The notes under the pieces were generated by a model that saw only the letters and a program-made list of their open reading frames with translations, had not been told where the DNA came from and did no database searches. The translations under genes were made by a program, and so were the position numbers. This document shows, in pieces, positions 10,754 through 29,522 of a stretch of DNA of 33,922 bases. Within the stretch, counting starts at the first letter, position 1. Each line of letters starts with the position of its first letter. The DNA comes from Bacteroidia bacterium (GTDB lineage: Bacteria; Bacteroidota; Bacteroidia; CAILMK01; JBBDIG01), in the NCBI GenBank assembly GCA_040880525.1, contig JBBDIG010000022.1, positions 1-33,922 of the forward strand, given 5' to 3'.

Positions 10754-11791
10754 ATGAAAAAGATTTTACTTTTTGCCGCAGTATTAATGTTCTCAGCATC
10801 AATGGTATTTGCTCAGGATATATCAATGGAAGACCTGACCGCACCGGATGCACCGATTCTCAGGAAGGGCGTTGCCGCCAATCTTTCTGTTCAGATTGTG
10901 AACAATGGACCTAATACCATAAACGGAGGGACCATCATCCCCTTAAAAGTTGAAATTGGAAACAACCCCGTTCAGTCAATAAATTTTCCGCTTGTCAACC
11001 CTTTACCCTCCGGTGACAGCTACAATTTGATGCTGTACCCTACATTTGAAAACGAACCTCTGGGTGCAATAGAAATTTGTATCTGGTCAGAGTATGCTGC
11101 TGATGGAAACAGTGCCAATGACCAAACATGCAGCAACTTTGAGTTGGTTACCTATAAGAGAGATATCGGAATGACAGCCATTCCAATTCCCCTTCCGAAC
11201 TCAATTGTCGAGAAGCAAACTTCCTATTCCTTTACCTTTACACTAAAGAATTTCAGCGATAGTGCAATTTCAGTGAATACCCGTATTCCTTACCAAGTGA
11301 GATTTGGCACAGGTACACCGGAAGAATATTATGTAGACCTGACAACAGACATGCTTCCTAACAGCGAGGCCTCGTATTCTTCTCCCGTAATAGAAGTGCC
11401 GGCAACTGTTCCAAACGGCCCTATTGAGATTTGCTTTGAAACCGCCTGGAGTACCGTTGTTGATGACGTCCAGACGAATAATGAATTCTGCCAGGATTAC
11501 CAGATAGCTCCTTCCGGAATTAAGGAAAATAACTTTGCAGGTTCAGTTGCCATCCAGCCGAACCCATTCGATGAGCAAACACAGATCACCTACGCATTGG
11601 CCACTTCTTCAGAAGTTGTGCTCAAAATCTACACTTTGGCAGGCAAGGAAGTGCAAACGCTGGTGAATGAAAAGCAGGCCGCTGGCAAACATGCTGCGGA
11701 TTTTGATGCTTCAGCGCTTGAAAAAGGAATCTACATTTACCGCCTGCAGTCTGGCGAAGTTTCCAAAACCGGCAGATTGGTGGTGCAGTAA
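10754..11791 (+). CDS. T9SS type A sorting-domain protein (paralogue 1)
   Basis: A 345-aa secreted protein. The signal peptide is MKKILLFAAVLMFSASMVFA, cleaved before QD. Two beta-sandwich modules follow (about 25-130 and 135-250) that resemble CARDB/adhesion-type domains, each with a pair of cysteines near its C-terminal end (ICIW...TCSNF and ICFE...FCQDY). The last roughly 85 residues are a T9SS type A sorting domain with IQPNPF (about 267-272), an A-G-K-E turn and KGIYIYRL. It should pass the outer membrane by T9SS and be released or surface-anchored. Its function is unknown. The downstream gene is a clear paralogue in the same arrangement. Confidence 0.9.
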   Translation: MKKILLFAAVLMFSASMVFAQDISMEDLTAPDAPILRKGVAANLSVQIVNNGPNTINGGTIIPLKVEIGNNPVQSINFPLVNPLPSGDSYNLMLYPTFENEPLGAIEICIWSEYAADGNSANDQTCSNFELVTYKRDIGMTAIPIPLPNSIVEKQTSYSFTFTLKNFSDSAISVNTRIPYQVRFGTGTPEEYYVDLTTDMLPNSEASYSSPVIEVPATVPNGPIEICFETAWSTVVDDVQTNNEFCQDYQIAPSGIKENNFAGSVAIQPNPFDEQTQITYALATSSEVVLKIYTLAGKEVQTLVNEKQAAGKHAADFDASALEKGIYIYRLQSGEVSKTGRLVVQ

Positions 11792-11997: not shown

Positions 11998-13029
11998 ATG
12001 AAAAGGATTTTACTTTTTGCCGTGGCAGCGATGTTTACAGCTTCCCTGGCATTCGCACAAGATGTTGGAGTTACATCGCTTTTACCAACCGGACCGACTC
12101 TAAAAAAGGGCGTGCCAACACGCTTGCAATTCTATATTACAAATTTGGGTTCGACTGCAATTTCACAAGGCACCCAGATTGCTGTGAATTTCAGCGTTGA
12201 GGGCACTGCCGGTACAGTAAGTAATATACCCGCACCCAGTACTTTGGACCCGGGGGATTCACTTTTGATTTCTCTCACTGCCCTCCGCTCATTTGACAAC
12301 TCTCCTTTGGGCCCAATTCAATTCTGTGCCTGGACTCAGTTTTCCGGTGACATAGATATAAATAATGATACAACATGCACTACCTACCAGCTCATTACAT
12401 ACAAACGAGACGTAGGTGTTTCCGCCATTACTGTGCCCCCGGAAAATTCTACTATTGATATGGGTGTACCCACGCAATTCTCATTTACCTTGAATAATTA
12501 TAGTGATAGTGTAATTGAGGAAGGCATAACCATTCCAATTCAGGTAAGAGTAGGATCCGGTTCTCCATTAAATTTGACCTATACTTTGGAAAATGATCTT
12601 GCTGCCAATAGCGACAGGACAATTTCCACAGGTGGGCTTACTATCAATGCACCACATGGCAATATTGAGATCTGCATTTCTACAAACTGGGGCACAAACG
12701 TGGATGATTTTACGGGCAACGACCAGGATTGTAATGACTATGACTTTAATACAAGCATAGTGGAAAACAACTTCAACGGTGCCGTTACCGTACAACCCAA
12801 TCCTTTCCATAACCAAACTCAGATCACTTATTCTCTGAACACTTCATCAGAAGTAGTGCTGAAAGTATATGATATGAATGGCAAGGAAATCACAACATTG
12901 GTAAACGAAAAACAACCGGCAGGTCTTCATGCTGCTGATTTCAATGCCACAGGCCTCGAAAAAGGCATTTACATTTACCGCCTCCAGGCTGGTGAGATGG
13001 CTAAAACCGGCAAACTGGTGCTGGAATAG
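11998..13029 (+). CDS. T9SS type A sorting-domain protein (paralogue 2)
   Basis: A 343-aa secreted protein with signal peptide MKRILLFAVAAMFTASLAFA. Its architecture is the same as that of the gene before it: two beta-sandwich modules with cysteine pairs (FCAW...TCTTY and ICIS...DCNDY) and a C-terminal T9SS type A domain (VQPNPF, KGIYIYRLQAGE). The two proteins are most alike in the signal peptide, the YKRD(I/V)G hinge and the sorting domain, and have diverged more in the modules. This indicates an older tandem duplication. It has its own promoter and terminator. Function unknown; a paired surface adhesin or structural role is only a guess. Confidence 0.9.
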   Translation: MKRILLFAVAAMFTASLAFAQDVGVTSLLPTGPTLKKGVPTRLQFYITNLGSTAISQGTQIAVNFSVEGTAGTVSNIPAPSTLDPGDSLLISLTALRSFDNSPLGPIQFCAWTQFSGDIDINNDTTCTTYQLITYKRDVGVSAITVPPENSTIDMGVPTQFSFTLNNYSDSVIEEGITIPIQVRVGSGSPLNLTYTLENDLAANSDRTISTGGLTINAPHGNIEICISTNWGTNVDDFTGNDQDCNDYDFNTSIVENNFNGAVTVQPNPFHNQTQITYSLNTSSEVVLKVYDMNGKEITTLVNEKQPAGLHAADFNATGLEKGIYIYRLQAGEMAKTGKLVLE

Positions 13030-18670: not shown

Positions 18671-20686
18671 ATGAAGATGAAAACTACATCCCTACTAACT
18701 TTACTTATGTTCCTTGCAGGATTGGGTGTGCATGGGCAAACATTTACTGACGACTTTGAATCCTATAATGCAGGCGACTTACTGGCCCAAAGCAGCAGTG
18801 ACTGGACCACGTGGTCAGGAACTTCAGGCGGGGCTGATGATATGCCGGTAACAAATATCAAAGCGAAAAGCGGCTCCAATTCCCTTTATTTCTCTTCCTC
18901 TCTGGCGAACGGAGGCCCGGATGATATTGTGCTTCCCTTTGGCGGAGAATATAGCTCCGGAACCTTCTCAGTCAGCTTCTGGATATTCGTAGAAACCGGG
19001 AAGAGCGCTTACTTCAACTTGCAGGAATCATCCACCACAGGTGAAGGATGGACCCTGGACGCGGACCTGGGAAGGGATGGAAGTCTCAGCCTCGGCAATA
19101 CCCTGTCAGGTGAGCTGCTTAATACCATCTACCTTCAGAATACGTGGTTCAAATTAGAAATATTGACAGACCTCAACACCAATAGCTGGGAACTCCTGAT
19201 TGATAATGTCTCCAAAGGAACATTCCAGAACAGCTACCGCCAGGTGGCAGCGCTGAACCTCTACCCACCTTCGGGTTCTGGCTTTTATGTGGATGACGTA
19301 AGCTACACATATATTCCATATTCACCTATTGCCCGGAATGGTACCGTTACGTTCATTGATGGTGTAGCTGATCTTCTTGCCGGGCAGCAGGGCAGCCCAG
19401 TGGTGGAAATCCGTAATCTTGGAACCCAGACCATCACCTCCGCTGAAATTGAGGTGAGCTACAATAATAACACACTGACGGAAACTGTAAGCGGTCTTAA
19501 CCTGTCAACTTTTGCCACCCATTCCGTGGCGCTGGATGATGTCATTGAACTGGTGCCCGGAGCGAATGCACTTATTGCCACAATCACCAAAGTAAACGGA
19601 CAGGCTGATGATGATGCCTCTGATGATTCCAAAACGCTCATATTGGATCCTGTGGTACCTGCACCCGCCAAGCTCGTAATTGCAGAAGAAGCCACAGGTA
19701 CATGGTGCGGATGGTGTCCGCGCGGTTCCGTTGCATTAGAGGAACTGGATGCGCTCTATCCGGGCCTTATCCAGTCTATTGCTGTGCACAATGGTGATCC
19801 GATGGCAGATCAGGTCTATGATGATGGGATTGGCCCGCTTATCAGCGGATATCCCTCGGCTGTGGTGGACAGGGGCAACGACATAGACCCTTCGGCCATA
19901 AAGGTTGATTTCCTGAAAAGGATCACGGTCGCTCCGAAGGCAACGATAACCAATGGCGCGGAATATAACAGCATCTCCCGCGAACTCAGGGTAAGCCTCA
20001 CCACTGAGATTTCTGAAGCACTTAGCGGAAACTATAAAATCGCCTGTGTGATCATTGAAGATGATGTTACCGGAACCGATCCTAAATATGCACAGGTAAA
20101 TTATTACGCTGGCGGGGGTAACGGCCCGATGGGTGGATATGAAAATCTGCCTAACCCGGTGCCTCCCTCTCAAATGGTGTATGACCACGTAGCGAGGAGC
20201 ATCTCTCCAAACTTCAGGGGGTTGCCCAATGCTTTCGGAGCTTCCGCTTCCCCCGGCCAGACATTTACCCATAACTTTACTTTTGAACTGAACCCGGAAT
20301 GGAAAAGCGAAAAAATCCATATCATCGCTTTATTTATAGATCCTTCAGGGATGATTGACAATGGATCTTCAACCACCATTGCGGAGGCTGAAACCAATGG
20401 CTATGAAGAGGGAACTACCGTAACGGGTGTGGAAATGCTTTCAACCAATTCTGAAAAGATCCGTGTATTTCCAAATCCGGCCACAGAACAGTTTAATTTG
20501 TTTCTTGGCGATCAGGGACCTTCTGACATCATGATCTATGACATGCATGGAAAACTTACCTACAACCGGGGGCAGGTCAGCGTTGAAGCGCTTTCGATCG
20601 ATGCGCACGAATGGCGTTCCGGCATTTACCTTGTGAAAGTGATACAGAATGGAAAAATGCAGCAATTGAAAATCGTAAAAGATTAG
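18671..20686 (+). CDS. Omp28-like T9SS type A protein
   Basis: A 671-aa secreted protein with a signal peptide cleaved near HGQ (about residue 24). The N-terminal part (25-215) looks like a concanavalin/LamG-type beta sandwich (DDFESYNAGDL, GFYVDDVSYTY). It is followed by a CARDB-like module (220-330), a thioredoxin-like Omp28 domain with TWCGWCPRG (Cys346-x2-Cys349), and a type A sorting domain (VFPNPATEQF, RSGIYLVKV). Omp28-type proteins are surface lipoproteins or cargo in Bacteroidota. The CxxC suggests redox activity or a structural disulfide. The three-part architecture with a front carbohydrate-binding-like domain suggests a role on the cell surface, but the substrate is unknown. Confidence 0.88.
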   Translation: MKMKTTSLLTLLMFLAGLGVHGQTFTDDFESYNAGDLLAQSSSDWTTWSGTSGGADDMPVTNIKAKSGSNSLYFSSSLANGGPDDIVLPFGGEYSSGTFSVSFWIFVETGKSAYFNLQESSTTGEGWTLDADLGRDGSLSLGNTLSGELLNTIYLQNTWFKLEILTDLNTNSWELLIDNVSKGTFQNSYRQVAALNLYPPSGSGFYVDDVSYTYIPYSPIARNGTVTFIDGVADLLAGQQGSPVVEIRNLGTQTITSAEIEVSYNNNTLTETVSGLNLSTFATHSVALDDVIELVPGANALIATITKVNGQADDDASDDSKTLILDPVVPAPAKLVIAEEATGTWCGWCPRGSVALEELDALYPGLIQSIAVHNGDPMADQVYDDGIGPLISGYPSAVVDRGNDIDPSAIKVDFLKRITVAPKATITNGAEYNSISRELRVSLTTEISEALSGNYKIACVIIEDDVTGTDPKYAQVNYYAGGGNGPMGGYENLPNPVPPSQMVYDHVARSISPNFRGLPNAFGASASPGQTFTHNFTFELNPEWKSEKIHIIALFIDPSGMIDNGSSTTIAEAETNGYEEGTTVTGVEMLSTNSEKIRVFPNPATEQFNLFLGDQGPSDIMIYDMHGKLTYNRGQVSVEALSIDAHEWRSGIYLVKVIQNGKMQQLKIVKD

Positions 20687-20790: not shown

Positions 20791-21143
20791 AGATTTCGTG
20801 TCAATTCCTATATTTTTAAAGAGATATATTCCAATAACAAAACCTTCGTATCTATCCCTATATTTTAATAATAATCCAACCTTCGGGTCCCTTAGTGCCC
20901 TTCGCGCCTTCGTGTCTATTCCTATTTTTTATATAAAATCAAATTATAAAAACCTTCGTGCCCCTTAGTGCTCTTCGTGCCTTCGTGTCTATTCCTCTTT
21001 TTTATATAAAATCAAATTATAAAAATCTTCGTGCCCCCTTAGTGCTCTTCGTATCTTCGTATCTATTCCTCCTTTTTATATAAAATCAAATTATAAAAAC
21101 CTTCGTGCCCCTTAGTGTTCTTCGCGCCTTCGTGTCTATTCTT
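20791..21143. repeat. 73-bp tandem repeat array (CCTTCGTG family)
   Basis: Copies at 20880-20952 (73 bp), 20953-21025 (73 bp) and 21026-21099 (74 bp) are followed by a partial copy at 21100-21142. Degenerate, shortened copies extend upstream to about 20791. Each unit has a conserved first half beginning CCTTCGTGCCCCTTAGTG and ending CCTTCGTGTCTATTCC, then an AT-rich half (TTTTTATATAAAATC and AAATTATAAAAA). The units abut without spacers. Both strands lack a long open frame. Confidence 0.9.
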
Positions 21144-21269: not shown

Positions 21270-22742
21270 TTAAGATGCAGCATATTTATATTTAAACGGA
21301 CTTGCCAGTTTCTTAAAGAAAGGCTCATCCAGTTTAATGAATGTCAGCATGCGGTTATCGCCTGTATTCTCCGCATTAAATTCATCCGCCAGCCTCTTCA
21401 GGCGTTTCACCTTTTTGTCAAACTCAGTGCTTTTGAGGGCCGCTTTAATGAACTTGATAAAGATCTTAGCGTGCTCTGAATTTCCCTCCATATCTTTTAC
21501 CTGGCGGTTTACACTGTTTATCAACTGAACACAAAGGTCTTCCTCCCCGGCTATGCAATATTCCATCGCCTGGAAGAGCTTGCATTCTATATCCGTTTTA
21601 ACAAAGTTCCGGAGTGATACTTCATTACGCAGATCATTGATCATCTTGGCAGCTCCAAAATGGTCTTCCTTGTAATGCTTGCATATGGCTTGGTACTGAT
21701 GGAAAACGGTATTATGGTATATCTCATCCCGCTCTATATCCAGGTTCTCCAGAATCTCGTCATTCTTTGCAAAAAGGATTTCAGAGTTTCCTGTGGCGAT
21801 GAAGTGCTGCACCCTGTCACTCAGGAAGGAGAGAATGTAAAAGTTAAATACATGGTGTTTGGAAAGTTCAGGTACCTCTCCGATGATTTTCTTGTAATGA
21901 TGCTCGGCACGCACATAGTTGCCGGTTTTAACGTAGTATCCGTAATAGAGAAAATCTACGATAAATTTCATTTTTTGGTAGAAAGTATCCAGCTCATACT
22001 TCTGAATAATTTCATTAATGCTCTTCAGTATATTTTCGATCTCAATTTCGAGGGAGCGCAATTCCTGCACATCTTCAGTGGTCATTGAAAGATGATAGAT
22101 CCTGACAATATTGTTTAGCACGAACAGGCGGTGAGAGTCATACAATTCCTGGATGTTGTTCAGTTTTCTGCGTACGTCATTCAGTTCCTCCCGGTCTTCT
22201 TCATGTCCGGTGAGCCCATAGTTGCCTATCCTGAAGATGAATGAATAGAAAAGCTTCTGTGCTTTGGTAACGGCAAGTGAAAAAGCCACATGCTTGCTGT
22301 AGAGCATGTCATACTTTTCATACTCTTCATTGTAAAGGTTGAGCCTGGCCAGGGTTTCATACACCACGATAAGCTCGTTGCTCAGGTCATATTCTATAAG
22401 TTGCTTTTCCAGGTCTTTTAATGCCCGGATGGATACAGCCTTGCTGGTGCCATAAAGGGTAGCCGGTACACGCGCTACCTCCTCCATCAATTCACTGATA
22501 GGGTTGTCTACTTTCTTGGAAAGAATGTAAGCCACCTTCGTCTTGAGGCGCGACTTCAAAGTGTAGTAGGTGCTGGGATTGACTTTCAGCATCTCCATCA
22601 TCTCACTGTCAGAGTAATTGTTGTTGCGTGCGGCCGTAAGTACAGCGTATGGCTTGCTGTCTTCACCACCAGGAATTTCGAGGATCAGGTTTTCAAAGTC
22701 CTGCTCGTTAAGTTTTTTAATGGTTTTGTTTAAAACGTCCAT
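21270..22742 (-). CDS. Conserved-looking 490-aa helical protein, HTH-like N-terminus
   Basis: This soluble, almost entirely helical protein has no signal peptide. The first roughly 75 residues include YSDSEMMEMLKVNPSTYYTLKSRLKTKVA, whose helix-turn-helix-like pattern resembles a sigma-factor region 4 or transposase-type DNA-binding segment. The remainder reads as a chain of antiparallel helices with Tyr/Leu-rich pairs (for example YYGYYVKTGNYVRAEHHYKK and FHQYQAICKHYKEDHFGAAKM), consistent with TPR-like repeats. I do not recognise the family. A DNA-binding regulator with a TPR sensor is a reasonable hypothesis only. It has a clear promoter and is divergent from the giant PKD gene. Confidence 0.85.
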   Translation of the reverse strand: MDVLNKTIKKLNEQDFENLILEIPGGEDSKPYAVLTAARNNNYSDSEMMEMLKVNPSTYYTLKSRLKTKVAYILSKKVDNPISELMEEVARVPATLYGTSKAVSIRALKDLEKQLIEYDLSNELIVVYETLARLNLYNEEYEKYDMLYSKHVAFSLAVTKAQKLFYSFIFRIGNYGLTGHEEDREELNDVRRKLNNIQELYDSHRLFVLNNIVRIYHLSMTTEDVQELRSLEIEIENILKSINEIIQKYELDTFYQKMKFIVDFLYYGYYVKTGNYVRAEHHYKKIIGEVPELSKHHVFNFYILSFLSDRVQHFIATGNSEILFAKNDEILENLDIERDEIYHNTVFHQYQAICKHYKEDHFGAAKMINDLRNEVSLRNFVKTDIECKLFQAMEYCIAGEEDLCVQLINSVNRQVKDMEGNSEHAKIFIKFIKAALKSTEFDKKVKRLKRLADEFNAENTGDNRMLTFIKLDEPFFKKLASPFKYKYAAS

Positions 22743-23104: not shown

Positions 23105-26100
23105 ATGAAAAAACAAATTACACCCACGGAAGATCAAGGAAAAGCCGCATCTACAGTACTGTTAGCCAGGCTGCGATCGTCCTTTTCTGTTTCTCTCGCT
23201 GGACTTCTCATTGCCATCATTAATGCAAGCTCAGCGTATGCACAAGCGCCTTCAGCTTCCTTTACCACCCAGGATACGATAGGATGCGTGCCGATGACAG
23301 TGAACTTTTCCAATACATCGGCCAATGCCTCCTCTTATTTCTGGGACTTTGGCAACGGCAATACATCTACTCTGTCCTCCCCTTCTAATGTATACCTGCA
23401 ACCGGGCACCTACCATGTAACGCTCATTGCCAGAGATACTGCCGGAAATAAGGATACCATTATAAAATCCAACTTCATTGAAGTAGTAAGGAATCCTGTG
23501 GCGTCCTTTACAGCAAATGACACGGTTACCTGTCCCGGACTTCCCATCATTTTTACCAACAACTCACTTTATGCCGATAGCTTGGTCTGGGACTTCGGGG
23601 ATGGCAATACCTCCTCTGATTCAGTGCTGGTACACAACTATACCTTACCGGGAAATTACACGGTGAAGCTCATCGCCAAAAGCAGTTATGGATGCAGGGA
23701 TGTGGCAGTAAAAACGTCCTATATCAGCATCCTGCCAAGCCCTGTGGCATTATTCAGTGCTTCCCAAGCTACAGCGTGCGATACCAATACCACGATATAT
23801 TTTTCGAGCAACAGCCATCATTCCTCAAATTATAAGTGGTATTTCGGAGATGGCGATTCAGCCAACACCGCCAACCCCTCTCATCTGTATTCGCAAGAAG
23901 GAAAATATGATGTAACCCTGATCGCATCAAACGGAACAGGATGTTTTGATACGCTTAGGCAGCAAAATTATATTACTATAGAAGTACCTCAGGAACCACA
24001 GATCATAGCAAGTACAACTGAAGGTTGTGCTCCGCAGGAGATACGTTTTGAGGCGAATGCACCTGGCGCTACTGCCTGGTTATGGAACTTTGGCGATAGT
24101 ACTACTTCGACCCGGAGAAAAACGACAAAAACGTACAGTACAACCGATACCTTTTATGTAACACTCAGCATTCAGACTGCAAATGGCTGCTCAGCTACCG
24201 TGGCTCAGCCCACCATGATCGTGATACAACAGCGGCCCACTGCCAGCTTTACCGTTAATGATACACTCGGTTGCGCTCCGTACACTGCCGGCTTTTCAAA
24301 TCTCTCCACGCCTGGTGTCACTTCTTTCTGGAACTATGGGGACGGAGACACCGCCACAGGCCAGAATCCAAATCATATTTATATGGAGGAAGGCACTTAT
24401 GACGTAACACTTGAAGTAACGGCTCCTAATGGATGCACAGCAGAAAGCACTATCAATGAGGCTGTTAAAGTGAATAAATTGTCCGCTGCATTTTCAGCAT
24501 CACCACGGTCAGGTTGCATTCCGATGACGGTGAATTTCAACTCGAAGACCACAGATGCCGATACCTGGTATTGGGATTTTGGAAACGGAGATACTTCGGG
24601 TGCTGCCAATCCGCAATACATTTATAAGAAACCCGGCAGCTATGATGTCAGCCTGATTGTGAATACCGCCACCGGCTGCACGGATACGCTGGTAAAAGAA
24701 AACTTTATTTCTACCACTAATATTCAAACGAATTATACCACTCCAGCGGTAAAAATTGGCTGCGCTCCTTTTACTGTGGATTTTAATGATGCTACCTCCG
24801 GAAGTACAGCATGGTCATGGAATTTCGGAGATGGGAATACCAGTACGGACCGTAATCCCAGCCATACTTACACCGAACCCGGCACTTATGACGTTTCCCT
24901 CGTTACCACGAAACAAGGCGGTTGTGAGCAATACATTGAAGTATATGAAAGAATACAGGTTACCGGTGCATTGGCTGAATTCTCTTACACTTATGAAGCA
25001 TGTCCACCTTATGATGTGCAGTTCCATGATTCCACTGTGGGGGCCGTTACCTGGCTTTGGAAATTTGATGACGGAACCACATCCACCGAACAGCATCCCA
25101 CCAAAAGCTTTAATACTTCCGGTTATCACAGCGTGTCTTTAACCATCACCACAGCCGATAGCTGCAGCCATACCACTTATGCGAACAATGCTATTTATTT
25201 TGTGCCGCTGAGTGCCGCGCTGAAGGCTGAGCAACTGGATACGGTTTTCCCTAAACGTGTGCAGTTTAGCGCTGAAGTGGATGGTGCCGACAGTTGGGAA
25301 TGGGATTTCGGAGACGGGAGTTTTTCCAATCAACTCAGCCCGCTGCACACTTATCAAACAGACTCTACTTACCTGATCCGGTTCACGATAATGAATGACC
25401 GCTGTACTACTGTCTACGAGGGAATGTTGCAGGAAATCATACCGCTTCCACAAATCGGAGGCGTGAAACCGCCAAACACTGGCGACACCAGCGCAATGCC
25501 GGAACCCATCACGGGTTGTCCGCCACTAACTGTAGAACTGAACGATACGACTTCAGGCGCTACCGCCTGGCAATGGATCCATGGAAATGGTGATACCTCC
25601 TATACACAAAAGGCCAGAGGCGTGTATGATGCTCCGGGTGAATATGACATTGTGCTCATTGTAACCAAGCCGGGTGGCACCGATACTATCCATTATAATA
25701 ATATGGTGCGGGTACCGGAGGTGAAAGCCCGTTTTTCGCTAATGCAGCAATATTTCTGTGATAAAACCGGGGTTTCTTTCCAGGATCAGTCAACCAATGC
25801 CTCTCAATGGATATGGAGCTTTGGTGATGGCGACAGTGCTTTTTCCCAAAATCCTTTACATTACTATGACGCCTCGCTGGATGCATTTACCGTCAGGCTG
25901 AGAGTTGTGGATACTTTTGGTTGCAAAAGCTCTGTCAGCAGAACACTGCACCGCATCACACCTGACGTCATTTCATCTGATGTTTCAGAGATCTGCTATA
26001 ATGATACAGTCCGGTTTGATAAAGCATTAAACGGAAACTATTCCTGGTTCTGGGATTTTGGAGATGGCAACTCCTCCAATGATGCGACCCCTGCCCATGT

Positions 26101-29100
26101 TTATACACAAGGCGGCAGCTACAACGTGATGCTCGTGATGCGGGATAACAGCAATAATTGCAGGGATACTTTCAATTTTGCAACGCAGGTGAACGTTACC
26201 CAACCGGTAGCTGATTTTACGTTGGACACTGACTCTGTAGCCTGTGACAGACTCAATGCGGAGTTCACCAATGCAAGCACCTCAGCAAATTCTTACAGGT
26301 GGCATTTTGGCGATAACGGCACCAGCCACAACCGGCATCCGGATTATACCTATAAAAAAGAGGGAACTTTTGATGTTACTCTGATAGCATCCATGAATGG
26401 ATGTTATGATACCGTAACAGTACCCCAACTGGTAACCATAAATAAAGCTGTGGCCGGATTTGCCATGTCGCAACAAAACGACTGTTTCCCGATCACGGCT
26501 ACTTTTACCGATACAAGCACAAACCCGGTTTCCTGGTTGTGGAAGTTCCAGGATGGAACCACCTCTGCGGTGCAGCACCCACAGCATGTGTTTACGGATA
26601 AACCTGCTTCGGGCACAACCCTGAAGATCACCGATACCAACGGTTGCGAAAAAACAGTGAAAGGGTCAAGAATTGATTTCGTGAGTGCCGACTTTAAAGC
26701 CAGCACCACCAACGGCTGCGCTCCTCAGGTGATCAGTTTCACCGATCAGTCGCACCAGGCTACGAGCTGGTTATGGGAATTTGGTGATGGAGATACTTCA
26801 ACGCTTCAAAACCCAACGCATGTTTATGCACAAAACGGCACATATACCGTAACGCTCATCATTGCTTCTTCCGGCAATTGCCATGATACCCTGGTGATGG
26901 AAGACTACATCGAAATTTCGCGTCCGTGGGCTGATTTCCATACCACATCAGCGGCTACCTGTGCACCTTCCAATGTGCAGTTCTTCAGCACCTCTTCAGA
27001 CGCTAAAAAGTGGCTTTGGAGCTTCGGAGACGGATCATCCTCAACCGTTGAAAATCCTGCACACATCTATGCGCAACCCGGCTTTTACACCGTAAAACTT
27101 AAAATTGAAAACAAGCAAGGATGTATTGATTCTATTATAAAAGATCGCTATATCCGCGTACTCGGCCCCATCAGTTCTTTTTCAGCATCGTCTCAGGATG
27201 TTTGTAATCCTGCCACGGTGGTATTTTCAGATTCTACTCAGGGCGCCATTTCATGGGAATGGAATTTTGGCGATGGCGCGGAATCCACGCAACGGCATCC
27301 AACGCACCTGTACGATTCTTCAGGCAACTATACCGTTTCACTGATCACCAAAGATTCTTTTAACTGCCAGGCGCTCTATGTGCTGCCATCCAAAATTAAC
27401 GTTACGCCCACTCCGCGGGCAAGTTTTTCGCTGGATCGTGACCTTTCCTGCGTAGGCGATACCATTCCATTCAGCAATCAATCAACAGATGGAACATTGT
27501 GGAACTGGGATTTTGGTGACGGAAAATCTTCCTCTAAAAAGAATCCCAACCATATATATACAGCTCCGGGCATTTATACGGTAACGCTCATCGCCTCCAC
27601 GCAGGCCGGCTGTGCCGATACGGTTATAAAGAAATCCATTCTACGGATCACCGGCCCGGTTGCCGACTTTACGCTGGATGATTCTTCGGGCTGTCAGCCT
27701 GTAACAGTTGAGTTCGGCCATCCCTCGGCAAATGCCTACTCCTGGAACTGGAATTTTGGCGATGGAAATACTTCTGACAGCAAAGACCCGCAACACCGGT
27801 ACGACAGCGCAGGCATCTACACCGTAACGCTGGAGGTTACCGATTCATTCAATTGCCTGGTAAAAATTGAAAAGCCACAGATAATATCCGTTTATCGCAT
27901 GCCCGAAGCGAAATTTTCAAGCGATCCTACGGAAGGCTGCGCACCTTTCGAAGTGAATTTCCACAACGAATCAAAATTTTATGACCATTCCGTCTGGAAG
28001 TTTGAAGATGATCTGAATATCGTGGGAAGGGACATTTTTATCAATTCTCAGGACGCATCTTACACCTACCAGAACAAAGGTGCCTACGGAGTGCAACTGG
28101 TAGTGAGCACGGACGAGGGTTGTTTTGACACAACCTCCTTCAATCCCGTTATTGTGAACCCCACTCCTGCTCCTGATTTTACCGCTGATAAAACCCAGGG
28201 TTGCAATCCTTCCATCATTCAGTTCCAAAACAAAACGCCTGATGATAGTACCTACAGCTACCAATGGCTTTTGGAGAACGACACCCTATCCGGCTCTGAC
28301 CCGGCTTATGAATTCGATCAATCAGGATTTTTCGATGTATCGCTGGTTGCCACTTCTTTAGAAGGCTGCAACGATACGCTTACTAAGACGGACTTCATCG
28401 AGATCTTTGACCAGGTTCCTCCTCCGGCTTCTGACCTTCATGCCGTATCGGTTCTTAATAACAATAGCGTGGAGATGAGCTGGAAACCCAGCAAGGCAAG
28501 CGACTTCAGCCACTATAATGTGTATCTGAGAAATAACGTTTCCGGCAACTATCAGCAAATCGCACAAATGAACCAGCGCCATGACACGAGCTTTTCTTCG
28601 ACCGGACTGAATACGCTGAAAAACGTCTACACTTTTATAGTGCAAACAGAAGACATCTGCGGACAAAGCCTGGAAATGGACAAACACCAACCGCACTCCA
28701 CCATAGAACTGAAAGCCGTTCCACAAGGAGATATGGTGAAACTGAACTGGAACCCTTATGCAGGCTGCGGAATACAGAGCTACAAAGTTTTCCGCCTTGC
28801 ACCGGGAGCCAGTACACCGGAGTTATTGGATGAGCTCCCACCCAACAGTTTTGAATTTTTAGATGAAACGGCTTGTCCCCGTCTTTACAGTTATCGCATT
28901 CAGGCTACCCGGCTATGTGGAGAAACCTATCACTCATTTAGTGATACCGCTGTTGCCAAACCGGCTGATTCAATTACCACTCTGACTGTGGATATTGTGC
29001 GAAGTACTGTGATAGACGACCGGGCTGTGCTTACCGAATGGGCAAAACCCTCGGTAGCTTCAGCCAAAGTTTCGGGATTCACCATATTCCGCTCCGTTGA

Positions 29101-29434
29101 CAGCAGTTTCTTTGAAGAGATTGCCGAACTTCCTGCCGAGGCTACCAGCTATGTGGACCATACGGCTTACGTGAAATCACAGAATTACTATTACCTTGTA
29201 CGGGCTGACAATCGTTGTGATATAGAAGGCAAACAAGGAAATCCCGGATCTTCAATCCTGCTTTCTGCTGAAAATACGGAAGATCACAATGTGCTCCTGA
29301 AATGGTCAGACTATCATCATTGGAAAAATGGTGTGGAATATTTCATTATTGAGAAAATGGATGAATATGGCACCTGGCAATATCTGGAAAAGGTAAAAGG
29401 AAATGAGAACAGCTTTATAGACAAGGAAGAATAG
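23105..29434 (+). CDS. Giant PKD-repeat surface protein, C-terminally truncated
   Basis: A 2109-aa protein with an extended signal peptide (basic region to about 28, hydrophobic core SVSLAGLLIAII, cleavage near AYAQA). About 21 PKD modules follow in tandem, each around 80-90 residues. Each has a W-x-W/F-x-FGDGxTS core and a GTYDVTL-type strand, and most carry a cysteine at the start (GCxPxxVxF) and another near the end (GCxDT). From about residue 1780 come fibronectin type III-like modules. The last one stops at a TAG in the middle of the domain. The type B sorting domain normally found at the end of such proteins is absent. Family knowledge suggests a secreted adhesin or gliding-type protein. 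Without the sorting domain it may not be exported across the outer membrane. Confidence 0.88.
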   Translation: MKKQITPTEDQGKAASTVLLARLRSSFSVSLAGLLIAIINASSAYAQAPSASFTTQDTIGCVPMTVNFSNTSANASSYFWDFGNGNTSTLSSPSNVYLQPGTYHVTLIARDTAGNKDTIIKSNFIEVVRNPVASFTANDTVTCPGLPIIFTNNSLYADSLVWDFGDGNTSSDSVLVHNYTLPGNYTVKLIAKSSYGCRDVAVKTSYISILPSPVALFSASQATACDTNTTIYFSSNSHHSSNYKWYFGDGDSANTANPSHLYSQEGKYDVTLIASNGTGCFDTLRQQNYITIEVPQEPQIIASTTEGCAPQEIRFEANAPGATAWLWNFGDSTTSTRRKTTKTYSTTDTFYVTLSIQTANGCSATVAQPTMIVIQQRPTASFTVNDTLGCAPYTAGFSNLSTPGVTSFWNYGDGDTATGQNPNHIYMEEGTYDVTLEVTAPNGCTAESTINEAVKVNKLSAAFSASPRSGCIPMTVNFNSKTTDADTWYWDFGNGDTSGAANPQYIYKKPGSYDVSLIVNTATGCTDTLVKENFISTTNIQTNYTTPAVKIGCAPFTVDFNDATSGSTAWSWNFGDGNTSTDRNPSHTYTEPGTYDVSLVTTKQGGCEQYIEVYERIQVTGALAEFSYTYEACPPYDVQFHDSTVGAVTWLWKFDDGTTSTEQHPTKSFNTSGYHSVSLTITTADSCSHTTYANNAIYFVPLSAALKAEQLDTVFPKRVQFSAEVDGADSWEWDFGDGSFSNQLSPLHTYQTDSTYLIRFTIMNDRCTTVYEGMLQEIIPLPQIGGVKPPNTGDTSAMPEPITGCPPLTVELNDTTSGATAWQWIHGNGDTSYTQKARGVYDAPGEYDIVLIVTKPGGTDTIHYNNMVRVPEVKARFSLMQQYFCDKTGVSFQDQSTNASQWIWSFGDGDSAFSQNPLHYYDASLDAFTVRLRVVDTFGCKSSVSRTLHRITPDVISSDVSEICYNDTVRFDKALNGNYSWFWDFGDGNSSNDATPAHVYTQGGSYNVMLVMRDNSNNCRDTFNFATQVNVTQPVADFTLDTDSVACDRLNAEFTNASTSANSYRWHFGDNGTSHNRHPDYTYKKEGTFDVTLIASMNGCYDTVTVPQLVTINKAVAGFAMSQQNDCFPITATFTDTSTNPVSWLWKFQDGTTSAVQHPQHVFTDKPASGTTLKITDTNGCEKTVKGSRIDFVSADFKASTTNGCAPQVISFTDQSHQATSWLWEFGDGDTSTLQNPTHVYAQNGTYTVTLIIASSGNCHDTLVMEDYIEISRPWADFHTTSAATCAPSNVQFFSTSSDAKKWLWSFGDGSSSTVENPAHIYAQPGFYTVKLKIENKQGCIDSIIKDRYIRVLGPISSFSASSQDVCNPATVVFSDSTQGAISWEWNFGDGAESTQRHPTHLYDSSGNYTVSLITKDSFNCQALYVLPSKINVTPTPRASFSLDRDLSCVGDTIPFSNQSTDGTLWNWDFGDGKSSSKKNPNHIYTAPGIYTVTLIASTQAGCADTVIKKSILRITGPVADFTLDDSSGCQPVTVEFGHPSANAYSWNWNFGDGNTSDSKDPQHRYDSAGIYTVTLEVTDSFNCLVKIEKPQIISVYRMPEAKFSSDPTEGCAPFEVNFHNESKFYDHSVWKFEDDLNIVGRDIFINSQDASYTYQNKGAYGVQLVVSTDEGCFDTTSFNPVIVNPTPAPDFTADKTQGCNPSIIQFQNKTPDDSTYSYQWLLENDTLSGSDPAYEFDQSGFFDVSLVATSLEGCNDTLTKTDFIEIFDQVPPPASDLHAVSVLNNNSVEMSWKPSKASDFSHYNVYLRNNVSGNYQQIAQMNQRHDTSFSSTGLNTLKNVYTFIVQTEDICGQSLEMDKHQPHSTIELKAVPQGDMVKLNWNPYAGCGIQSYKVFRLAPGASTPELLDELPPNSFEFLDETACPRLYSYRIQATRLCGETYHSFSDTAVAKPADSITTLTVDIVRSTVIDDRAVLTEWAKPSVASAKVSGFTIFRSVDSSFFEEIAELPAEATSYVDHTAYVKSQNYYYLVRADNRCDIEGKQGNPGSSILLSAENTEDHNVLLKWSDYHHWKNGVEYFIIEKMDEYGTWQYLEKVKGNENSFIDKEE

Positions 29435-29469
29435 GAATACCGCGCTGAAAAAGCTGGCTGCGCATAGCA

Positions 29470-29497
29470 CCTTCGTGCCCCTTAGTGTCCTTTGAGC
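29470..29497. repeat. Dispersed CCTTCGTGCCCCTTAGTG copy
   Basis: This single, partial copy of the first half of the 73-bp unit lies some 8 kb from the array. It begins three bases after the second stop codon downstream of the PKD gene. Confidence 0.8.
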
Positions 29498-29522
29498 TTT
29501 TATATCTAAATTTTGGTTCATC

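Follow-up and report, generated by a model that had tools for sequence, protein, structure and literature searches.

Domain architecture of the giant protein

The stretch of DNA analysed here (the window, 33,922 nucleotides) is the whole of contig C22 of a 3.80-Mb Bacteroidia genome in 60 contigs, and it holds a long open reading frame for a PKD/Fn3 protein, referred to below as the giant, together with the following features.

23105-29434, plus strand: giant PKD/Fn3 protein without a C-terminal sorting domain (CTD), the probable large half of a bipartite protein; 2109 aa; Pfam PKD_4 and fn3
23105-23242, plus strand: N-terminal signal peptide of the giant (residues 1 to about 46), its n-region being long; judged by eye and from the N-termini of relatives
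23246-28400, plus strand: PKD array of about 20 repeats; Pfam PF18911 (PKD_4), 21 stretches, E 1.8e-252
28401-29251, plus strand: three complete Fn3-like modules; Pfam fn3 at residues 1774-1855, alignment, and AlphaFold2 for the third
29252-29431, plus strand: fourth Fn3-like module, with strands up to E only; alignment, AlphaFold2, profile, and dN/dS of relatives
29432-29434, plus strand: TAG, the natural conserved stop of the giant; same end in the family
29435-29467, plus strand: in-frame codons past the stop (EYRAEKAGCA, then a stop); unconserved and outside the protein
11555-11788, 12796-13023 and 20465-20680: type A tails of other window proteins; tail search of the genome
31932-32180: type B tail of another window protein; type B search of the genome

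The PKD array is presumably a long stalk. Alignment of the giant with 21 paralogues carrying PKD, Fn3 and type B sorting domains on one chain (one-piece paralogues) demonstrated that its last module ends after the E strand (...NENSFIDKEE, then the stop), strands F and G alone being missing. The same end is found in an AlphaFold2 model of the last two modules, built from an alignment of eight sequences (mean pLDDT 75, pTM 0.49), where the third Fn3 module is complete and the fourth ends after strand E; the last strands of the model, at residues 106-110, 122-128, 134-141 and 146-149, were interpreted as strands B, C, C' and E. In a fold search the third module (model residues 1-81) reached Z values of about 8-10 with Fn3 domains, and tandem Fn3 structures aligned along the whole model and ended before their own C-termini, as with residues 669-835 of the 196-residue chain of 6pok; since the rmsd over both modules was large (about 12-20 Å), the third module alone is considered well matched. 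The fourth module of the giant is conserved and open, a putative acceptor.

Neither a type A nor a type B sorting domain (TIGR04131/PF13585 for type B) was found in the 2109 residues of the giant with Pfam and NCBIfam. A first, sequence-only reading of the window had described a 2109-aa PKD protein ending in the middle of an Fn3 module without a sorting domain, and the open reading frame, the alignment, the AlphaFold2 model and the domain searches bear this out; the TAG, the ten in-frame codons behind it and the second TAG are likewise present in the sequence as described. That all other T9SS-type secreted proteins of the window keep their C-terminal domain holds for the four with type A or type B tails; as a statement about every such protein it goes further than the search, which covered tail-bearing proteins.

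A divergent gene for a 490-aa protein (21270-22742, minus strand) is placed before the giant; neither Pfam, at its curated cut-offs, nor NCBIfam gave a match to it, and in the relatives G002, G011 and G033 an open reading frame of like length (488-494 aa) and orientation occupies the same place. Small open reading frames with one Fn3-like module, as judged by eye, lie beside the giant in G034 (L086:4945-5352) and G033 (L083:4545-5171).

Conservation of the truncated end

With the last 320 residues of the giant as a query against 60 genomes (its own and those of relatives), twelve proteins in ten genomes were found to stop where the giant of the window stops, and the one-piece paralogues that were followed to their end continue through strands F and G into the type B domain (two further ones, L072 and L040, extend past the edge of the locus). 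In a wider set of 395 genomes of the class all 46 family members read, from 39 genomes, end at this same point, and none of the 46 contains the sorting-domain motif looked for. Orthologues with the same natural end, which the sequence-only reading had named as evidence that would speak against it, are the rule in this family. The same giant end was found in seven named metagenome-assembled genome records, some of which bear titles of lake or pond samples; four of the seven (L229, L230, L232 and L233) duplicate genomes included in the counts above. The dN/dS ratio of the truncated module was examined in nine close pairs, three of which were saturated; ω was 0-0.07 in five of the six computable pairs, and 0.70, from four changes only, in the pair G392/G076. 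By these ratios, purifying selection acts on the truncated module in every computable pair except G392/G076. The stop of the giant is a conserved natural end, and the protein is whole.

It is on these data that two accounts of the missing tail can be judged, both of which had been put forward in similar form from the sequence of the window. According to one, the giant is a truncated pseudogene or the product of an assembly error that has lost its tail, or, in the wording of the sequence-only reading, a non-exported remnant; the end in mid-domain and a dispersed repeat just downstream of it speak in its favour. A pseudogene would end unlike its intact orthologues, and here 46 of 46 members in 39 separate genomes share the end. 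With purifying selection added, this common natural end refutes the remnant, and we regard loss of the tail by decay or misassembly as exceedingly improbable. According to the other account, programmed readthrough or a frameshift supplies the tail, and the in-frame 'YR' behind the stop in the genome of the window and in G002 was counted for it; the codons past the stop had indeed been taken for a plausible continuation of the domain. That motif occurs within 16 codons past the stop in these two alone of the 46 giants, however, and the downstream peptides are unlike one another except between close relatives. The stop codon itself varies (TAA in 33, TGA in seven and TAG in six of the 46), no sorting-domain motif was seen by eye in the three forward frames of up to 400 bases behind the stop at 12 loci, and the following codons are not conserved; completion by readthrough is refuted because of this variation and lack of conservation, and a recoding event of either kind has hardly any probability left.

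The repeat mentioned above is an intergenic element of about 73 bp (AACCTTCGTGCCCCTTAGTG...), present as a 3.6-copy tandem at 20878-21141 of the window, with a similar stretch at 29469-29514 just behind the stop of the giant; elsewhere in the genome, contigs C17, C37 and C49 are among those with partial matches. Its insertion as the cause of the truncation was rejected, because genomes with unlike downstream DNA share the end of the giant. In G002 and G011 a 23-bp exact match lies directly behind the stop (GATTATCGCGTAATTCTCTCGCG; L080:12278-12300 and L081:1804-1826), and the coding part before it has saturated synonymous sites.

A small adaptor carrying the missing strands and a type B domain

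The missing part was first seen in three relatives directly upstream of the giant, as a small gene whose product has a signal peptide followed by 'YRVTA...SN...'. The corresponding protein of the genome of the window, here called the adaptor, is encoded on another contig (G000:C30:24126-24572, minus strand; MEKGKLLFLV...AQASDDGKMRYRITAVQSGNEDVWSMSNIAEVIPAMTVFVPNAFSPNEDG...SGSVTLLR). It comprises about 150 residues, made up of a signal peptide, Fn3 strands F-G and a T9SS type B sorting domain, the latter assigned by CHU_C (E 5.6e-19) and TIGR04131 (66.9 bits, cut-off 35). Forty adaptors were read, one from each of 40 genomes, and all have a common build: a signal peptide (by eye, in some behind a longer N-terminal stretch), a short linker, an F strand with [YF]-[RK], a G strand with S-N, and the type B domain. 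The F-G part had ω values of 0.04-0.17 in seven of seven pairs. An AlphaFold2 single-sequence model of an adaptor reached a pLDDT of 36.6 and was left out of the evidence. The sequence-only reading had proposed to look for the missing type B domain elsewhere in the genome or in orthologues, and this check succeeds: the domain was found in the genome of the window and in each other genome where the giant was found. Of the three readings offered there, only the use of another anchor survives; it comes closest to what was found, strands F-G and the type B domain residing on a separate small protein.

A profile of the last Fn3 module and the type B domain (199 positions), made from the 21 one-piece paralogues only, is tiled by the two proteins. 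All 46 giants match it up to positions 61-74 (the giant of the window to about 72), and all 38 adaptors given match it from positions 59-83 to 197-199 (that of the genome of the window from about 78 to 199), with a median step between the halves of 7.5 positions over 44 pairings. Thirty-eight of the 40 adaptors entered this test and the trees described below, G240 and G337 being left out. As judged from the profile, the split between giant and adaptor is in the E-F loop of the Fn3 domain.

Several short type B frames were considered as adaptors and rejected. Three in the genome of the window (L101, L111 and L120), examined as unpaired adaptors, are without the signal peptide and F-G build; the type B search of that genome listed further short frames of 69 aa (C16), 87 aa (C11), 128 aa (C7), 210 aa (C38), 296 aa (C14) and 304 aa (C2). 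The short frames on G004:C188, G007:C143, G312:C168, G009:C126, G004:C144 and G004:C210 are pieces of one-piece proteins at contig edges. Among solved structures, the sole strong match of the adaptor profile was the 5898-aa Aureispira grappling hook protein (9flp and others).

Co-occurrence, gene order and evolutionary relatedness

When the 60 genomes were searched with a profile from four adaptor proteins, the ten best matches (frames of 150-173 aa) fell in exactly the ten genomes that hold a giant. In the 395 genomes of the class a first tier of matches (adaptor E ≤1.5e-45, giant E ≤6.8e-100; the tiers were chosen after the gap in the match lists was visible) gave the adaptor in 37 genomes and the giant in 36, and all 36 genomes with a giant hold an adaptor. 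The one first-tier adaptor without a giant match, in G095, has a frame-broken giant beside it, and the more diverged G308, G148 and G340 have both genes. At most nine adaptor and five giant candidates were scored per genome in these searches, so members may have been missed, G095 being one such case. Holders of both genes belong to 12 sampled families; in four of these (f3, f8, f24 and f37) the two genes are present in some members and, at the thresholds used, both absent from other sampled ones. The counts of co-occurrence are raw and include shared ancestry. The giant is paired with the adaptor, and the presence of the two genes together wherever either was found suggests that giant and adaptor join in order to get to the cell surface.

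In 25 of 40 genomes the genes of adaptor and giant are neighbours on one strand, the adaptor gene lying upstream in 24 of these and downstream only in G340. Among the 24 upstream cases there are 23 in which the frame of the giant opens between -151 and +141 bases from the end of the adaptor, and in G016 one open reading frame lies between them; in G013, G034, G127, G186, G264 and G240 the start of the giant follows the adaptor, with the C-terminus of the giant on another contig. In the other 15 genomes, that of the window included, the stretches read on either side of the adaptor contain no giant. Two giants and a single adaptor are among the listed matches of seven genomes, which suggests that the adaptor is shared; together with the 15 cases just named, this means that strict one-to-one pairing is not general.

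The evolutionary relatedness of each half to the 21 one-piece paralogues was analysed in unrooted trees whose bootstraps had not settled. The 46 giants lie together on one side of a branch from the one-piece paralogues (support 99/83), the long-branch giants G148, G340 and G308 being unsurely placed, and the 38 adaptors lie likewise on one side of such a branch, with weak support (79/82). The trees and the gene linkage are consistent with one old split followed by joint inheritance of the two halves. The neighbours of the adaptor are often two-component-like genes, by eye response regulators, histidine kinases and NtrC-like regulators; they were seen in the genome of the window (L224:1175-8387, on C30) and in G002, G011, G034, G095, G143, G201, G252, G297 and G317.

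A probable bipartite T9SS type B surface protein

The genome of the window encodes the SprA translocon (TIGR04189, 2549 bits) and has six PorP/SprF (PF11751) matches, none of which lies on the contigs of the giant (C22) or the adaptor (C30). It is rich in tails of both types: at least 150 matches were obtained for type A (150 of 202 candidates were scored, and all matched) and 46, at E ≤0.01, for type B. In the parts of the literature at hand, type B substrates are known or predicted adhesins that exit the translocon on PorP/SprF-like carriers, by which they are then anchored at the surface (PMC9143113, PMC12618676, PMC10994853). According to the portions seen of two papers, type B secretion requires more than 200 C-terminal residues, that is, more than the conserved domain (PMC10202324, PMC12618676), which would fit a role for the domain that precedes the tail. 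In the available part of one of these sources a Sec-exported fusion without a CTD served as the negative control for T9SS secretion (PMC12618676). The simplest account, as far as that source goes, is therefore that the type B domain of the adaptor carries and anchors the pair.

Given the split of one domain at a defined place, with a co-inherited partner and selection on either side of it, giant and adaptor most probably form a bipartite T9SS type B surface protein in which an Fn3 domain is completed in trans and the adaptor exports and anchors the giant. We infer the reassembly of the halves, their co-export and their anchoring at the surface, together with the binding, the compartment and the order of events, which may be pictured as follows. 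Both proteins would cross the inner membrane by Sec, each with its own signal peptide (by eye), and would most likely come together in the periplasm; there the adaptor would complete the open Fn3 domain of the giant with its F-G hairpin, by strand complementation. Through its type B domain the adaptor would then engage SprA, as the translocon, and a shuttle of the PorP/SprF kind, and the giant would thereby cross the outer membrane and be held on the surface through the adaptor. There is about an even chance, in our estimate, that the pair represents a two-partner branch of the T9SS, in which a small 'socket' with the signal for export and anchoring and with two β-strands receives giant stalks with an open Fn3 domain and licenses their export, one socket serving more than one giant.

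Pili assemble at the outer membrane, and this known case lends some weight to an arrangement in which the halves complete each other only after export, the adaptor leaving alone by means of its type B domain and the giant, brought to the surface by another route or kept in the periplasm, docking there; the present data suit either compartment. Against it, Pfam and NCBIfam revealed no further known signal for outer-membrane export in the giant, and Sec cargo without a CTD is the very negative control cited above from the part of the source at hand (PMC12618676), so that docking after export appears rather unlikely. Quite doubtful, and more so than docking, is that the adaptor is a small secreted protein in its own right, with F-G strands it merely inherited, the giant being anchored otherwise and without it. 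The adaptor could fold around its type B domain alone, and the 15 of 40 genomes with no giant in the flanks read would suit such independence; the co-occurrence without exception among the genomes found, the adjacency in 25 of 40, the exact tiling and the selection acting on each of the two pieces of the divided domain are against it. Export of the giant through its adaptor remains the preferred reading.

Comparison with known systems

With the described T9SS type B adhesins (TIGR04131/PF13585; SprB-SprF and PG1035-PorP) the pair shares the PKD/Fn3 stalk and the type B domain, and with their genomes the presence of SprA and PorP/SprF-like genes. In contrast to these adhesins, which in the parts of the literature at hand have the sorting domain on the same chain, the domain here is on a second protein, probably joined through the split Fn3 domain, and the adjacent PorP/SprF-like gene that is usual, though not universal, for type B substrates is lacking in the genome of the window. 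The one-piece paralogues of the same genome (for example, L032-L038) match the pair in the order of their domains and are homologous to it in the Fn3 and type B parts; they differ in being single chains that fall outside the clade of the giants and outside that of the adaptors.

Donor-strand complementation occurs in chaperone-usher and type V pili, and the proposed mechanism may be said to resemble it without being filed under it. In both, an open Ig-like fold would be completed in trans by strands of another protein, and the giant does have an open Ig-like fold lacking strands (alignment, AlphaFold2 and profile) for which partner strands exist. Unlike in the pili, a whole F-G hairpin is missing, with the split between E and F, the donor bears a T9SS export signal, and no polymerisation is implied. 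A likeness may also be drawn to Tat hitchhiker export, where, in the part seen of one paper, a signal-less subunit of PaoABC crosses in complex with a signal-bearing one (PMC4273604), just as the giant, without an export signal for the outer membrane, would cross with its signal-bearing partner. As far as that source allows the comparison, membrane and machine are different, and both halves of the present pair have Sec signals (by eye), only the outer-membrane signal being supplied in trans.

The full-text literature searched, with few subscription papers and no bioRxiv preprints, contained no report of a T9SS cargo whose sorting domain is a protein of its own, nor of an Fn3 domain divided in this way in such a setting. 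The cargo described in those parts of the literature that were examined carries the sorting domain on its own chain, and a natural trans pair would, if true, mean export as a complex. Counts of T9SS cargo that are based on the CTD would then miss large proteins, and the pair would constitute a natural split-domain coupler open to genetic tests. It also makes testable why type B signals require more than the conserved last ~100 residues.

Among the one-piece genes, a tandem pair of nearly alike PKD-Fn3-type B genes was seen at G000:C50:50928-57687 (frames of 1735 and 1746 aa), with one difference across the last ~260 residues.
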